Origin: Candidatus Planktophila sp.
GTDB lineage: Bacteria; Actinomycetota; Actinomycetes; Nanopelagicales; Nanopelagicaceae
DNA: 64,000 nucleotides
Direction of reading: 5' to 3'
Assembly (NCBI GenBank): GCA_030681675.1
Contig: JAUXRP010000040.1
Span: forward strand, 186,001-250,000
Of this stretch, positions 20,834 through 25,647 are shown one piece after another. How positions within the stretch are numbered: position 1 is the stretch's first letter; each line of letters begins with the position of its first letter. A program made the position numbers and the translations under genes. The notes under the pieces are model-generated. The model did not search any database. It was not told the DNA's origin and worked only from the letters and a program-made list of their open reading frames with translations.

Positions 20834-22087
20834 ATGAGGATCAGGCCTTATCTTGCAGTTCTTGCTTTAGTACTGAGTCAATTAATAACCCTTTCAGTTT
20901 CATTCGGTGCATCCCCCGAGATTCCCAAGGGAGCTTTCGATGCCACTCTTCTAAGTTTTAAGGCATTAACGCCGAATATGTTTGGTGTGAGTACGGGGCA
21001 ACCCGTGGCTGATGTCTCTGTAATTTTGTTATCAAATGGAAAACTCAGAGCATATGTCTTCGCACAAAATAAAGGCATAGAGATTGCCGAGTCTTCGGAC
21101 AACGGGAAAACTTTTACCCGAGTCGGAAATGCATTTGGTGGCGATAAAGGTAATGGTCAACCGCGCGCAGTCGCACTTTCAGATGGAAGAGTTCGTTTGT
21201 ACACAACTTCAAGTGGAGGGGTTAACTGTTCAATTTCGACTGATGGTTTGACATTCACATTAGAGAAAGCAAATTGTTTGTTAGCTTCGGACTATTCCGA
21301 ATCATCGGGCCTTGCCGGTCCGGGTGTTGTTCAATTGAGCACAGGTAAATGGAGAGCTTATTTCAGCGGTTTACCTAAAGCGGGAACTGGTCCAGATCCT
21401 TGGAAAATGTATAGCGCATCTTCCGATGATGGCGTTGATTGGATCCGCGATGCAGGAGTAAGAATCGGCACCGGTTCTTCAAGTATTAAACGAAGCGCTG
21501 AACACCCAACAGCTATACGACATAGTGATAATTCAATAACCGTCTTTTACTTTGATGATGGTGCTGATCCAGAAGGCACTGGAAAAATTTATTCCAATGG
21601 AAACGGTTTGCATTATTCGCATAGCAGCGATGGGTTAAATTTTTCTGAGGAAAAATGGTTTGACATGGTGAAGATTGACTCACGCCTGTCGGGCACAGAG
21701 ATGAATGACCCAGATGTTGTTTTGGATAAAGATGGAAATGTACTTTTATTTGGTGGCGGCTTTGCCCATGATTTCGGTGGCTATATAAATGTAATGGTTT
21801 TAAAGCCCGGGCAAGGAACACCTGCTTATACGGGAGATCGTTGCTTGGCCGCAAAAATTCTCCCAGGGGGTCCTCCAAATCCTCCGTGTGGTGTAAACGT
21901 TGTTCAACCAACACCAGTCACACAACCAACACCAAATCCGATTGTGAGTTCAGAACCATCACCTACGCAATCACTGGCGACTAAACCATCGGTAAAGAAA
22001 ATTACGATTACCTGTGTTAAAGGTAAAACTATTAAAAAAATATCAGGCGCTACTCCAAAATGTCCGGCAGGTTATAAGAAGAAGTAA
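20834..22087 (+). CDS. Secreted Asp-box (sialidase-like propeller) protein with basic Cys-containing C-terminal tail
   Basis: Exported protein of 417 residues. After a signal peptide (YLAVLALVLSQLITLSVSFGA) come at least four Asp-box motifs: SSDNGKTF, STDGLTF, SSDDGVDW and SSDGLNF. These are typical of sialidase-like beta-propellers, but the catalytic residues of true sialidases are not obvious, so enzymatic activity is uncertain. A Pro/Thr/Ser linker (PTPVTQPTPNP) leads to a compact basic end with two Cys (ITCVKGKTIKK ... PKCPAGYKKK). I think this tail recurs on other secreted proteins of this bacterial group, from memory only. Confidence 0.72.
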   Translation: MRIRPYLAVLALVLSQLITLSVSFGASPEIPKGAFDATLLSFKALTPNMFGVSTGQPVADVSVILLSNGKLRAYVFAQNKGIEIAESSDNGKTFTRVGNAFGGDKGNGQPRAVALSDGRVRLYTTSSGGVNCSISTDGLTFTLEKANCLLASDYSESSGLAGPGVVQLSTGKWRAYFSGLPKAGTGPDPWKMYSASSDDGVDWIRDAGVRIGTGSSSIKRSAEHPTAIRHSDNSITVFYFDDGADPEGTGKIYSNGNGLHYSHSSDGLNFSEEKWFDMVKIDSRLSGTEMNDPDVVLDKDGNVLLFGGGFAHDFGGYINVMVLKPGQGTPAYTGDRCLAAKILPGGPPNPPCGVNVVQPTPVTQPTPNPIVSSEPSPTQSLATKPSVKKITITCVKGKTIKKISGATPKCPAGYKKK

Positions 22088-22152: not shown

Positions 22153-22875
22153 TTAAAGTTTTTTGGTGGTTAGCCATTTCTCGGTTGCCTGCATCCTTTC
22201 AAGTGGTGCCTCGATAAAGGCATAGTGTGCCGCTCCCTTTATGCAGTAATACTCAGATCCCTGAACGCGAGCCTTCATAAATCGTTGCATAGCTGGGGTT
22301 GCTTCATCATTTTCACCGTTTATAAAGAGAGTAGGCACTTTAATGCGGTGGAGCTCCTTCTCTACAGTCCAATCCTTCAGGGAGCCTCGGACTGTAAATT
22401 CAGTAGGTCCCCACATCGCTTCATAAACATGTTTACCGAATTCTCGTTTTGGCTCGTTGTCAATGAGTGAAGGAATCTGTCGAATGTGACGATCAGCAAA
22501 CTCAGTTTTTGCCGCTAGATATTCTTTGCTTGTGTACTTCCCCAACCTCTCATACTTATAGATTGCAGCACGATGTTTTGCCGGCAATTTCGCCACTAGT
22601 TTTCGAGTTTCTCGAACCCATATACGACTAGATGGAAGCGAGTTAGCAATAATTAAACCTTTAAACCCTGGAGGCTTTTTGATTGCGTAATTCAGCGCCA
22701 GCATTTCATCCCAAGATGCACCAGCAAGTATGTAACGCATCTCAATTTTGAGATGTTTTAAAACTCTTGATAATTCTTCTTCGAACAGTCCTATAGTCCA
22801 ATGTGGCCATGGGATGAGATTAAGCCTAAACCCATAAAAAGAGCGGAGGATGTCCGAGCACAATGACTTCAGCAC
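22153..22875 (-). pseudogene. Proline iminopeptidase-like alpha/beta hydrolase, 5'-truncated remnant
   Basis: The body resembles proline iminopeptidases: WTIGLFEEELSRVLKHLKI, ALNYAIKKPPGFKGLIIANS, the acid in NGENDEATP and the His in GAAHYAFIEAP. The normal N-terminus with HGGPG and the DQLGCG segment is missing, and the nucleophile elbow is altered: GASWDE in place of GxSWGG, so the Gly after the Ser is lost. The first 12 codons (MLKSLCSDILRS) come from a repeat that also occurs at 25428-25481, so the frame was created by a rearrangement. I call it a decayed gene; a shortened new function cannot be excluded. Confidence 0.7.
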
Positions 22876-22894
22876 GGGGCACTGGTTCCAGGTT
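22841..22894. repeat. Direct repeat R1, copy a
   Basis: 54 bp matching 25428-25481 with one mismatch. It contains GCGGAGGAT, the same bases as the tRNA-Ser acceptor end, then GTCCGAGCAC. The truncated peptidase frame begins within it. Confidence 0.85.
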
Positions 22895-22943
22895 AATTAG
22901 TGTATAAATCAATTCGTGATTCAGCTGGAGCGAGTAAAACGAG

Positions 22944-23026
22944 CGGAGGATGAGGGATTTGAACCCTCGAGACTTTCGTCTACGTGTGTTCGAGACGCGC
23001 ACACTCGGCCACTATGCGAATCCTCC
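22944..23026 (-). tRNA. tRNA-Ser (anticodon CGA), slightly degenerate copy
   Basis: 83 nt with a 7-bp acceptor stem (GGAGGAT/ATCCTCC), a T-arm GAGGG-TTCAAAT-CCCTC, a long variable arm with a 4-bp stem and GAAA loop, and anticodon loop CTCGAAC, so anticodon CGA reading UCG. G73 is present; CCA is not encoded. Compared with the copy at 24272-24354 it has two changes, giving a C:A mismatch in the anticodon stem and a G:U pair in the D stem. It may be weakly functional or decaying. The 255 nt between it and the next gene (23027-23281) hold nothing I can identify. Confidence 0.88.
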
Positions 23027-23281
23027 TGAAGTGCGAAATATATCCTAGAGAGAGTTAATGGATTATCCCCGAAAGGCATCTCACTAGAACCGCAACAGAG
23101 ACAAAATACACTTAAGCAATGTGGATTAGATTGTGATAGCGCCCAGCACTACACCAAAACAGCTTATTGTTTTTTACTGCATCCTTGGAATTAACTATAG
23201 GAATTCTTCTCAGTTTGCGGATGACCTCATTATTTCGAAGCAGCCAGATTCAGGCAGGATAAAGTTCTGAGTCAACTTCAC

Positions 23282-23620
23282 TTATTTATTTAACAAGACA
23301 TTAGTTTCACATTGCGCAAAAAAGAGTGGTAAATAACTAAGTCTTCCTGATTTACGCCACCCAGTACGCACCCAGGTTTTTTCCCTAAAAGTCTTTCCAC
23401 CATCTTTTGAAACTTGAAATGAACAGCCAACCCGATCCAATTTGTAACGAACGAAAAATTCCTTTATCTCCAGTTCAATTTTACGATTCTTGACTAGTTC
23501 TTGGGTCTGTAGTTCATAGCGCGAAGCATTCTTAACTCCGAGTTCTGCCATGAATTCAAAGTAGGCGAGCTCTTGATCTGAATCTCGCGGAGTTAGAGAA
23601 CTTTTACTTGGTTCAACCAT
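23282..23620 (-). CDS. Small cytosolic protein of unknown function, module copy A
   Basis: 112 residues, no signal peptide or membrane helix. It is a diverged paralogue of the protein at 24632-24961: both share an LTP motif near the start, ASRYELQ/RSRYELQ in the middle, a following K/R-rich strand ending in a YK(L/I) pair, and a C-terminal FFAQ(C/S)E. It follows the secreted-protein gene after 14 nt, the same gap as in the second copy, so the pair is a conserved two-gene unit. No family recognised. Confidence 0.65.
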   Translation of the reverse strand: MVEPSKSSLTPRDSDQELAYFEFMAELGVKNASRYELQTQELVKNRKIELEIKEFFVRYKLDRVGCSFQVSKDGGKTFREKTWVRTGWRKSGRLSYLPLFFAQCETNVLLNK

Positions 23621-23634
23621 GAAATTAGTTTAAC

Positions 23635-24117
23635 TCAGGTACCGCATTTAATGGGGAAAATATGTTCTGAAATAGTTCTAGGCGTCTTAAATTGATGTCC
23701 TTTGATGTAAGCCTCAGCGTAGGCAATACCGTAATACCGCGAAACTTTCTTATTCGTGCAGTACTCAAAAGTAGATTGATTCTCGATCAAAGAATTGGCA
23801 GGGATAAATCCATTGACTTCTGTAGTGTGACTAGTAATGAAGTAGTGAGTGAATCTTCCAATCTTATAAATCTCAACTGTTAGACGTAAATCCTGTATGA
23901 ATTTGTCGCATTTTGAATCTGCGTTGACCTTGACAGCCCCTTTACCTTGAGTTCGAAGAATATATTTGGATATATGCGCATCATGAATTTGAATGTGACA
24001 CTTGGTTAAAGGTGGCGTTGCACCTGTTGCCAAAGCCGGTGTTACTGAAACGATTAGTTGCGTGATGATGGCGAATATCGCGAATATGAGTTTGGTTGAA
24101 GGATTTATTAATGGCAT
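23635..24117 (-). CDS. Small secreted Cys-containing protein of unknown function, module copy A
   Basis: 160 residues with a signal peptide (LIFAIFAIITQLIVSVTPALA). The mature part has four Cys, enough for two disulfides, and ends in CGT at the stop. Conserved with the paralogue at 24976-25302 are the HIQIHDAHISK region, GAVKVNADSKC, YYGIAYAEAYI and PIKCGT. No Shine-Dalgarno is seen before the ATG. A TAACTT element overlapping a DnaA-box sequence lies about 40 nt upstream. No family recognised; secretion is the only supported property. Confidence 0.65.
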   Translation of the reverse strand: MPLINPSTKLIFAIFAIITQLIVSVTPALATGATPPLTKCHIQIHDAHISKYILRTQGKGAVKVNADSKCDKFIQDLRLTVEIYKIGRFTHYFITSHTTEVNGFIPANSLIENQSTFEYCTNKKVSRYYGIAYAEAYIKGHQFKTPRTISEHIFPIKCGT

Positions 24118-24156
24118 ACCGCAAGGATGACAAGAAGTCGTGACGAGACTTAAAAG

Positions 24157-24165
24157 TTATCCACA
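24157..24165 (+). promoter_or_regulatory. Perfect DnaA-box sequence in the upstream region of module copy A
   Basis: TTATCCACA. Read on the minus strand it gives TGTGGATAACTT, whose TAACTT could be the -10 of the secreted-protein gene. The same 12 bases and a following TCGTCACG occur upstream of copy B. Confidence 0.45.
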
Positions 24166-24202
24166 AGGCCGATTGAGGGAGCGGATGATGTCCGAACCAA
24201 AA

Positions 24203-24271
24203 GACTTCCTGTATCAGGCAGGGGTTCCGCGGAAATTTGTACTTGGAGAAATTTGAGCTTTGACCCGAGAG
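24203..24271. repeat. Direct repeat R2, copy a, directly downstream of tRNA-Ser(CGA)
   Basis: About 69 bp matching 25495-25562 with three substitutions and one indel. It contains the 10-bp palindrome TTCCGCGGAA at 24225-24234 and runs straight into the tRNA 3' end, so it is the tRNA trailer region of both copies. Confidence 0.85.
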
Positions 24272-24354
24272 CGGAGGATGAGGGATTTGAACCCTCGAGA
24301 CTTTCGTCTACGCGTGTTCGAGACGCGCGCACTCGGCCACTATGCGAATCCTCC
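24272..24354 (-). tRNA. tRNA-Ser (anticodon CGA)
   Basis: 83 nt with all stems intact: acceptor GGAGGAT/ATCCTCC, anticodon stem CGCGT/ACGCG around loop CTCGAAC, variable arm AGAC-GAAA-GTCT and T-arm GAGGG/CCCTC. G73 is present and CCA is not encoded. This is the better-paired copy of the two CGA genes. The 277 nt to the next gene (24355-24631) hold only an unconvincing open frame. Confidence 0.95.
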
Positions 24355-24631
24355 ATGGGAAGCATACGTGTTTATTGGAAAGTTCAGTAGCCAAGCGCCA
24401 GATTTCTGATCGATTCAGTGTCAACACGTTTTTCTTGGCAACCGAGATCTAATTGAAGAAAACCAAAATAATATTTTTGTTCTCCAATTGACTGGTCGAA
24501 AGGTACCTTGTAAAAGCCGTCGCTCTCTTCGGGATTTTGAGTTAGAAAAATAACCAACCTCTAACTTCTGCCCGCCCACCCGCTCTTTAATGTGAACGCC
24601 ACCGCCTAGGCGGCGCATCGCTTGTTATCCA

Positions 24632-24961
24632 TTAGCTCATAAATCCTGCTTCACTTTGAGCAAAAAATTCGACTAGTTGTTCAATTTGTTCGGCTCGAGA
24701 TTTAGGAATGGGAGCTTCGCCTGAGTAACTATTTTCAGTTGCTAAAGCAGGGAGGGCGTGCCAGACAAATCGATCATCCTTAATTTTGTATTTGAGCAAG
24801 TAGTTACCGTTTTGACGGGAAAAGGATCCTTTTTCAAAAAGAATTGCGGCTTGCAATTCATATCTTGACCTCTCTACTTGGATTAATCTGAAACATTCAG
24901 CAATAACTTCCGACTCCCTAATCTGTTGCGCGGGAGTTAAGAAACTTTCATCGACGCCCAT
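24632..24961 (-). CDS. Small cytosolic protein of unknown function, module copy B
   Basis: 109 residues, no signal peptide or transmembrane helix. It is the paralogue of the protein at 23282-23620, aligning from the N-terminal LTP through RSRYELQ to the C-terminal FFAQSE. Divergence is large, so the duplication is not recent or selection differs. It follows its secreted partner after 14 nt. Function unknown. Confidence 0.63.
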   Translation of the reverse strand: MGVDESFLTPAQQIRESEVIAECFRLIQVERSRYELQAAILFEKGSFSRQNGNYLLKYKIKDDRFVWHALPALATENSYSGEAPIPKSRAEQIEQLVEFFAQSEAGFMS

Positions 24962-24975
24962 GGAAAAAGAGTATC

Positions 24976-25302
24976 TTAAGTTCCACAGTCGATGGGATTA
25001 ATAATGCGTAACAGCACGTGACGTGCGTACTGCCATTTTCCTTCAATAAATGCCTTTGAGTAAGCAATACCGTAATATGAAAATGTAACTTTACTTTGTG
25101 GTGAGTGACATCTTGAGAATGCATCTACTTTCACCGCGCGCTTCCCAGTTTTGATCCAAAGGTTCTTTGATATATGGGCGATACTAATTTCGATGCGGCA
25201 AGGCAATTTTGTACTTTGTGCCTCCGCGCTGTGATTACCAATTAGGGTAGTTATGACAAGTAATAAAGCAGTTATGAGCGCAGATACTTTTTGTGTCTTC
25301 AT
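24976..25302 (-). CDS. Small secreted protein of unknown function, module copy B with internal deletion
   Basis: 108 residues with a signal peptide (VSALITALLLVITTLIGNHSAEA). It aligns with the 160-residue copy A protein at both ends (CRIEISIAHISK, RAVKVDAFSRC, YYGIAYSKAFIEGK, PIDCGT) but lacks about 50 residues between the second and third conserved Cys regions, leaving three Cys. The frame is preserved, so the deletion may be tolerated. The upstream region shares TGTGGATAACTT with copy A. Confidence 0.63.
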   Translation of the reverse strand: MKTQKVSALITALLLVITTLIGNHSAEAQSTKLPCRIEISIAHISKNLWIKTGKRAVKVDAFSRCHSPQSKVTFSYYGIAYSKAFIEGKWQYARHVLLRIINPIDCGT

Positions 25303-25341
25303 GTGCGAAGAGTCGCAATATGACGTGACGACTCTCGGAAG

Positions 25342-25350
25342 TTATCCACA
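25342..25350 (+). promoter_or_regulatory. Perfect DnaA-box sequence in the upstream region of module copy B
   Basis: TTATCCACA, the same element as at 24157-24165. On the minus strand it reads TGTGGATAACTT, followed a few bases later by TCGTCACG, 40 nt before the secreted-protein start. Confidence 0.45.
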
Positions 25351-25427
25351 GCTTTTTAATAAAATGACGGAGATTGATATTTGTTGTGTGATTGCCTTCG
25401 CCCAGATAAATCCGAAGCGAGTGAAAT

Positions 25428-25481
25428 GAGCGGAGGATGTCCGAGCACAATTACTTCAGCACGGGGCACTGGTTCCAGGTT
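25428..25481. repeat. Direct repeat R1, copy b
   Basis: 54 bp, 53 identical to 22841-22894. On its left it is flanked by AGCGAGTGAAAT, nearly the same as the sequence flanking the tRNA at 22944 (AGCGAGTAAAAC), which indicates past recombination within this array. Confidence 0.85.
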
Positions 25482-25494
25482 TGTCCTAACTTGT

Positions 25495-25562
25495 GACTTC
25501 TGTATAAGGCAGGGGTTCCGCGGAAATTAGTACTTGGAGAAATTTGAGTTTTGACCCGAGAG
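25495..25562. repeat. Direct repeat R2, copy b, directly downstream of tRNA-Ser(GGA)
   Basis: Matches 24203-24271 with three substitutions and one indel and runs into the tRNA 3' end. The palindrome TTCCGCGGAA is kept. Confidence 0.85.
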
Positions 25563-25647
25563 CGGAGGATGAGGGATTTGAACCCTCGATAGGTTGCCCT
25601 ATACACGCTTTCCAAGCGTGCGCACTCGGCCGCTATGCGAATCCTCC
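25563..25647 (-). tRNA. tRNA-Ser (anticodon GGA)
   Basis: 85 nt. Acceptor GGAGGAT/ATCCTCC and T-arm are identical to the two CGA genes. The anticodon stem CACGC/GCGTG encloses TTGGAAA, anticodon GGA, reading UCC and UCU. The variable arm is long (TAGG-GCAA-CCTA). CCA is not encoded. It lies next to the SRP RNA gene, an arrangement I would expect in actinobacteria. Confidence 0.95.

Follow-up and report, generated by a model that had tools for sequence, protein, structure and literature searches.

A two-gene module with a putative DnaA-box promoter at a tRNA-Ser cassette hotspot of Nanopelagicaceae

In Ca. Actinomarinales, cassettes are known to insert at transfer RNA (tRNA) genes, with accompanying repeats of the tRNA 3' end (PMC7771536). 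DnaA, the initiator of chromosome replication, is established as both an activator and a repressor of transcription (PMC8203912). tRNA cassette hotspots and DnaA-regulated genes thus each belong to a kind already described. Here, we report a locus that appears to combine them. It lies in a 64,000-nucleotide (nt) stretch of DNA (hereafter the window) from Candidatus Planktophila sp., a member of the Nanopelagicaceae (assembly GCA_030681675.1, contig JAUXRP010000040.1, positions 186,001 to 250,000). Three tRNA-Ser genes, all on the minus strand, accompany two tandem units, A2-B2 and A1-B1, both located 3' of tRNA-Ser(GGA) and each followed by a tRNA-Ser(CGA). In each unit, a gene encoding an exported protein (A) precedes a gene encoding a cytosolic one (B). 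This arrangement of three tRNA genes, two units and a 14-nt gap between A and B, noticed in a sequence-only reading of the window, is borne out by the coordinates. The locus is not described in the open-access papers searched or in the tool libraries. It is rather probable that it constitutes an additive tRNA-Ser cassette hotspot, whose main cargo in Nanopelagicaceae is an AB operon with a promoter wired to DnaA.

The promoters of A and B

The upstream region of A carries a box, TGTGGATAAC or, for most long-type A genes, TGGGGATAAC, that lies 37–39 nt 5' of the start in 34 of the 44 distinct copies of A (including four one-base variants) and always faces the A gene. Sites matching TG[TG]GGATAAC number 35 in 845 kb of hotspot loci (a set that contains a few near-duplicate loci), and 34 of them stand before A in the same orientation. 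A hexamer of the form.A...T is found exactly 26 nt past the box (27 nt in long-type A) in 29 of the 34 copies, as against nine at most for any other offset. The combined pattern of box and hexamer occurs nine times in 101 genomes, always before an A gene, and not once in the control. The sequence-only reading had mentioned an upstream element shared by the two units. Such an element does exist and has two parts, a copy of the tRNA 3' end with an element of about 90 nt (see below) and this box, 38 nt before both A starts; the DnaA box with its fixed geometry had been overlooked, as had the leaderless-promoter look of the 14-nt gap.

The source genome (G000; 1.83 Mb in 46 contigs) carries 18 copies of TTATCCACA, of which five are located at oriC and two at the promoters of A1 and A2. 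Both in this genome and in P. versatilis, the sequence clusters at the dnaA promoter and in the dnaA-dnaN gap. Judged from the sequence, TTATCCACA is the DnaA box of the source genome. If transcription begins at the start codon of A, the box in front of A is centred near -43, where activators that contact RNA polymerase commonly bind. Transcription of A and B from the tRNA promoter is disfavoured, as the spacing of box and hexamer is fixed to the start of A and not to the tRNA.

The gap between A and B measures 14 nt in both units of the source genome and exactly 14 nt in 14 of the 36 non-redundant pairs, across genera; nearly all of these gaps read stop-GA-TANNNT-N6-ATG. The hexamer TANNNT is located 5–7 nt before the start of 29 B genes, each of them short-type; by comparison, its frequency at this position is 2.7% over all ATGs and 27% among long open reading frames (ORFs). 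Long B genes abut or overlap A in place of the fixed gap. The fixed gap is best read as a putative leaderless promoter of B that overlaps the stop codon of A.

Two other observations concern such sites. B genes that lack an A gene just upstream (L073 7286, L076 1056, L077 195, L069 6759 and L074 7339) share a motif, ACTACTGCGGGTAAY, about 25 nt before their start, perhaps a relict or a variant of the box. At L138 (C40:83110-83131), two perfect DnaA boxes stand downstream of gyrA, at a distance of about 10 kb from oriC, and might form an additional DnaA site.

The A and B families

A was found in 70 and B in 67 of the 296 genomes of the order, both being present in 56. Each family occurs in 8 of the 17 genera, every match falling within the Nanopelagicaceae; A was found nowhere outside this family in a class-wide genome sample. 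Named carriers include Candidatus Planktophila and other Nanopelagicaceae, among them the cultured P. versatilis MMS-IA-79 and IMCC25003. B lies on the same strand within 600 nt downstream of 69 of the 88 A segments. At the thresholds used, 14 genomes have A only and 11 have B only, some of these cases being due to contig ends or divergent partners. The earlier proposal of a conserved two-gene system that tracks tRNA-Ser therefore holds: homologues exist outside the source genome, across Nanopelagicaceae, and the two genes are nearly always paired there.

The distances of cognate A and B proteins are correlated (r = 0.74), a value reached by none of 2000 permutations, all of which remained at or below 0.23. 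A and B are thus shown, at the level of sequence, to be conserved families that diverge together. The ratios of nonsynonymous to synonymous substitution rates (dN/dS) among the closest homologues are 0.19 for A1 and 0.38 for B1, versus 0.03–0.08 for recR and dnaX. A1 and B1 are under purifying selection, constrained yet evolving faster than housekeeping genes.

The paralogy of the two units, which had been judged by eye, was recovered for A by direct comparison (A1 versus A2, BLASTP 3e-11). For B, the pairwise score is weak (0.009), but profiles built from a single type retrieve the other type with E values of 3e-4 and 2e-6. A contains a beta-sandwich domain with four conserved cysteines (Cys). 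Its short type carries a signal peptide and its long type an N-terminal membrane anchor. B comprises a type of about 110 amino acids (aa) and one of about 170 aa, the latter accompanying long A, and is devoid of export signal; these assignments were made from the sequences and from the modelled N-terminal helix, without a dedicated predictor. The structure model of A is a beta-sandwich of high confidence (predicted local distance difference test, pLDDT, above 90 in the domain) and that of B, an alpha/beta protein, has the order HH-EEEE-H (pLDDT 79). Compared with relatives of its own type, A2 displays an in-frame internal deletion of about 46 residues including one of the four conserved Cys, so that A2, and hence unit 2, may be in decay.

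Sequence searches of A and B in Pfam, NCBIfam, PHROGs and PDB gave only isolated sub-threshold matches that differ between members, and no relatives of A or B were retrieved from viral contigs and PHROGs. A scan of PADLOC-DB with the B family gave no match (best E value of a single member, 0.003). The broad family alignments are too diverse for a pattern search. The fold search of A returned weak likenesses to several beta-sandwiches, and that of B nothing significant; sliding-clamp matches that recurred for B were discarded (E above 0.2, template modelling (TM) score about 0.2).

In G045 (L060, 6757-7131), the position of B, exactly 14 nt downstream of A, is occupied by a member of a third family of small proteins, C, whose members start with MAEVDPLDDSIVRYVIRRH; this family also occurs in L064 and as a remnant in the window. 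In L071 and L154, the open frame of A extends back through the tRNA-Ser gene to form a 244-aa ORF, for which gene callers could annotate a false N-terminus.

The tRNA-Ser hotspot and its turnover

A tRNA-Ser gene is located at most 1.5 kb upstream and on the same strand for 38 of the 53 A entries, several of the others stopping at contig ends. Most copies of A and B share a single hotspot, which extends from dnaX to an aldehyde dehydrogenase gene and follows tRNA-Ser(GGA) or tRNA-Ser(CGA). One flank, made of tRNA-Ser(GGA), the signal recognition particle (SRP) RNA gene and dnaX, is syntenic across the class, and the other corresponds in relatives to an aldehyde dehydrogenase-permease block. 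The cargo varies and includes proline-iminopeptidase-like hydrolases, DUF952, GNAT and collagen-like proteins, as well as long and short AB. Among nearest relatives, G000 has two AB units, G037 has one and a broken long B, and G053 has none; the order of AB types is reversed between G000 and G039.

Each tRNA is followed, 90–132 nt further on, by a 12-nt repeat of the tRNA 3' end. The window contains six copies where 0.21 would be expected, and such direct repeats also occur in many relatives. Two copies of the tRNA 3' end enclose an element of about 90 nt that is conserved across genera, in which the motifs GGCTGAATCAC and TGGAACC are kept. In a genus sample, this element was found in five genomes only, at tRNA-Ser loci, with one further match on another contig. 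It might represent a minimal integrating element of the non-autonomous kind. Its interpretation as a decayed CGA tRNA gene was rejected, the internal sequence not aligning with tRNA.

Variable cargo between a tRNA gene and conserved flanks, together with direct repeats of the tRNA 3' end, is what characterizes tRNA-anchored additive islands, and this locus shows both. Among the matches listed, no PF00589 integrase lies at the tRNA-Ser locus, and most genomes have two, a Xer-like number. Since no integrase was listed near the locus, recombination between tRNA-Ser repeats or flanks is the likeliest route of cassette exchange.

The features of the array are given in Table 1. The Rfam scan matched only the SRP RNA and one tRNA, and the two CGA tRNAs are nearly identical (98%). 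Next to the hotspot, the window encodes a secreted BNR-repeat-like protein (20834-22087, plus strand), which is also present in G053 and was not seen there in G037. It also encodes a proline-iminopeptidase-like hydrolase (22153-22875, minus strand) that lacks roughly 75 positions at the start of the family profile. In the close relative G053 (L083), an intact hydrolase of this kind (296 aa) directly follows tRNA-Ser(CGA).

Table 1. Coordinates, within the window, of the features of the tRNA-Ser array
Feature	Position	Strand	Remarks
tRNA-Ser(GGA), hotspot anchor	25562..25647	-	conserved synteny with SRP RNA and dnaX
Second copy of tRNA-Ser 3' end that terminates a ~120-nt mini-element downstream of tRNA-Ser(GGA)	25428..25439	-	
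Candidate DnaA box TGTGGATAAC	25341..25350	-	38 nt 5' of A2 start
-10-like hexamer GACTCT	25309..25314	-	26 nt past box, 6 nt before A2 ATG
A2, exported Cys protein, 108 aa	24976..25302	-	internal deletion of ~46 aa including third conserved Cys
TACTCT, putative leaderless -10 of B2	24968..24973	-	between A2 stop and B2 start
B2, cytosolic partner, 109 aa	24632..24961	-	
C family remnant (third partner family)	24384..24557	-	complete in G045 (L060), where the gap to the preceding A gene is exactly 14 nt
tRNA-Ser(CGA) copy 1	24271..24354	-	
Second copy of tRNA-Ser 3' end, mini-element end	24179..24190	-	1 mismatch
Candidate DnaA box TGTGGATAAC	24156..24165	-	38 nt 5' of A1 start
-10-like hexamer CATCCT	24124..24129	-	after TGT (extended -10 like), 6 nt before A1 ATG
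A1, exported beta-sandwich protein, 160 aa	23635..24117	-	Cys 40/70/120/158; dN/dS 0.19
TAAACT, putative leaderless -10 of B1	23627..23632	-	
B1, cytosolic partner, 112 aa	23282..23620	-	model HH-EEEE-H; dN/dS 0.38
tRNA-Ser(CGA) copy 2	22943..23026	-	
Second copy of tRNA-Ser 3' end, outer end of array	22841..22852	-	
~90-nt element, window copies	22841-22942, 24179-24270, 25428-25561		

Proposed functioning, alternatives and known systems

The functioning of the module can be pictured as follows. DnaA would bind the box, which is placed as for an upstream activator, and the transcription of AB would be adjusted to the DnaA state of the cell. The AB transcripts would be leaderless. A would be exposed on the envelope or shed from it, and B would act inside the cell as the partner of A, presumably in contact with it. 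Cassettes would be swapped by recombination at the repeated 3' ends of tRNA-Ser and at the flanks, without a local integrase. A role in phage exclusion or competition is put forward tentatively, a biotic interaction being the likeliest because the cassette is rapidly gained, lost, swapped and degraded and would be exposed at the cell surface. Equally speculative is the proposal that the replication state of the cell governs, through DnaA, when an envelope-exposed module for defence or interaction is turned on, for instance after a phage has halted host replication.

Several points weigh against this picture. The strict box is absent from 10 of the 44 A copies, most of which have near-matches at the same place. 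DnaA is named as the bound factor from the identity of the site with the boxes of oriC, and it could repress the promoter of A instead of activating it. Fold searches of A and B against PDB gave no confident functional match, and the library scans no defence, toxin or phage family match (PADLOC for B only).

Among the alternatives, one that we consider unlikely casts A as a sensor or receptor at the surface and B as its intracellular transducer or regulator, which might feed back on DnaA or on replication like Sda, a checkpoint protein under DnaA control; the module would then convey an external signal to the replication cycle. The co-divergence of an envelope protein with a cytosolic one would suit such a role, as would the DnaA box of most A promoters and the established role of DnaA as a transcription factor whose targets include checkpoint genes (PMC8203912). 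However, short-type A has no lasting membrane anchor to signal through, B has no recognizable signalling or DNA-binding fold, and an accessory system that is often lost would be unusual for a cell-cycle controller.

It is quite doubtful that the box is bound by some other regulator sharing the recognition sequence of DnaA. The identity of a bound protein is not readable from its site, and long-type A uses the variant TGGGGATAAC; nevertheless, the 9-mer at its core is identical to the DnaA box that clusters at oriC, and the variant is itself present once beside dnaA.

The sequence-only reading had favoured, as one model, an exported effector with its immunity protein, and this now seems improbable. 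The strict order and close linkage of the genes, and the co-divergence of polymorphic pairs in a hypervariable locus, would suit this model, but at the thresholds used intact A is found without a detected B, and B without A, some of these cases reflecting contig ends or divergent partners. One A subtype is membrane-anchored, and B, being devoid of export signal, is cytosolic and does not share the compartment of the exported A. Neither protein matches a toxin or immunity family or fold, and a DnaA-box promoter would not be expected in such a system. Nothing was found in support of the metal system that had also been suggested. Finally, it is very improbable that the box itself matters as a titration or timing site like datA with the proteins as passengers, since, even if the genome has few perfect oriC-type boxes and two of these lie at this locus, each unit has a single box, its position is fixed to the start codon and the -10 hexamer (titration needs neither), the proteins are under purifying selection and the site is absent from many relatives.

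The preferred reading, an exchangeable AB cassette controlled by DnaA, can be set beside several described systems. At the level of fold, A bears a weak likeness to LEA14, arrestin and TMEM106B, which like A are secreted or luminal beta-sandwiches, but the TM score is at most about 0.5 and there is no sequence relation. The locus resembles fGI1 of Ca. Actinomarinales (PMC7771536) by its small cassettes at tRNA, the direct repeats of the tRNA 3' end and the turnover among close relatives. It differs from it by the use of tRNA-Ser, by cassettes of one or two genes and by a dominant cargo that is a dedicated pair with its own putative DnaA-box promoter, in place of envelope sugar genes. The tycheposons of Methylophilaceae (PMC10872708) also carry cargo beside a tRNA in a streamlined aquatic bacterium. 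However, they are reported to be 4–200 kb long, whereas the locus described here spans a few kb, has no tyrosine recombinase among the matches listed and includes a tiny element of about 90 nt between tRNA 3'-end repeats.

As regards regulation, AB resembles the DnaA-regulated genes dnaA, nrd and sda (PMC8203912) in having in its promoter region a DnaA box, the same as at oriC. The promoter of A shows the sequence traits of a DnaA regulon, namely a box identical to those of oriC in a fixed geometry. Unlike these genes, AB is accessory and exchangeable, does not belong to replication, repair or sporulation and has one box, at a near-invariant spacing from a putative leaderless-type -10. If DnaA control proves true, the DnaA regulon would extend beyond replication and checkpoint genes to exchangeable surface traits, in a group that is among the most abundant freshwater bacteria and has cultured carriers. 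Two undescribed protein families gain a firm definition, a genomic home and a testable control circuit. What is new with respect to all these systems is the union of a tRNA cassette hotspot and DnaA-type regulation in an accessory pair from two undescribed families with a near-invariant DnaA-box promoter.

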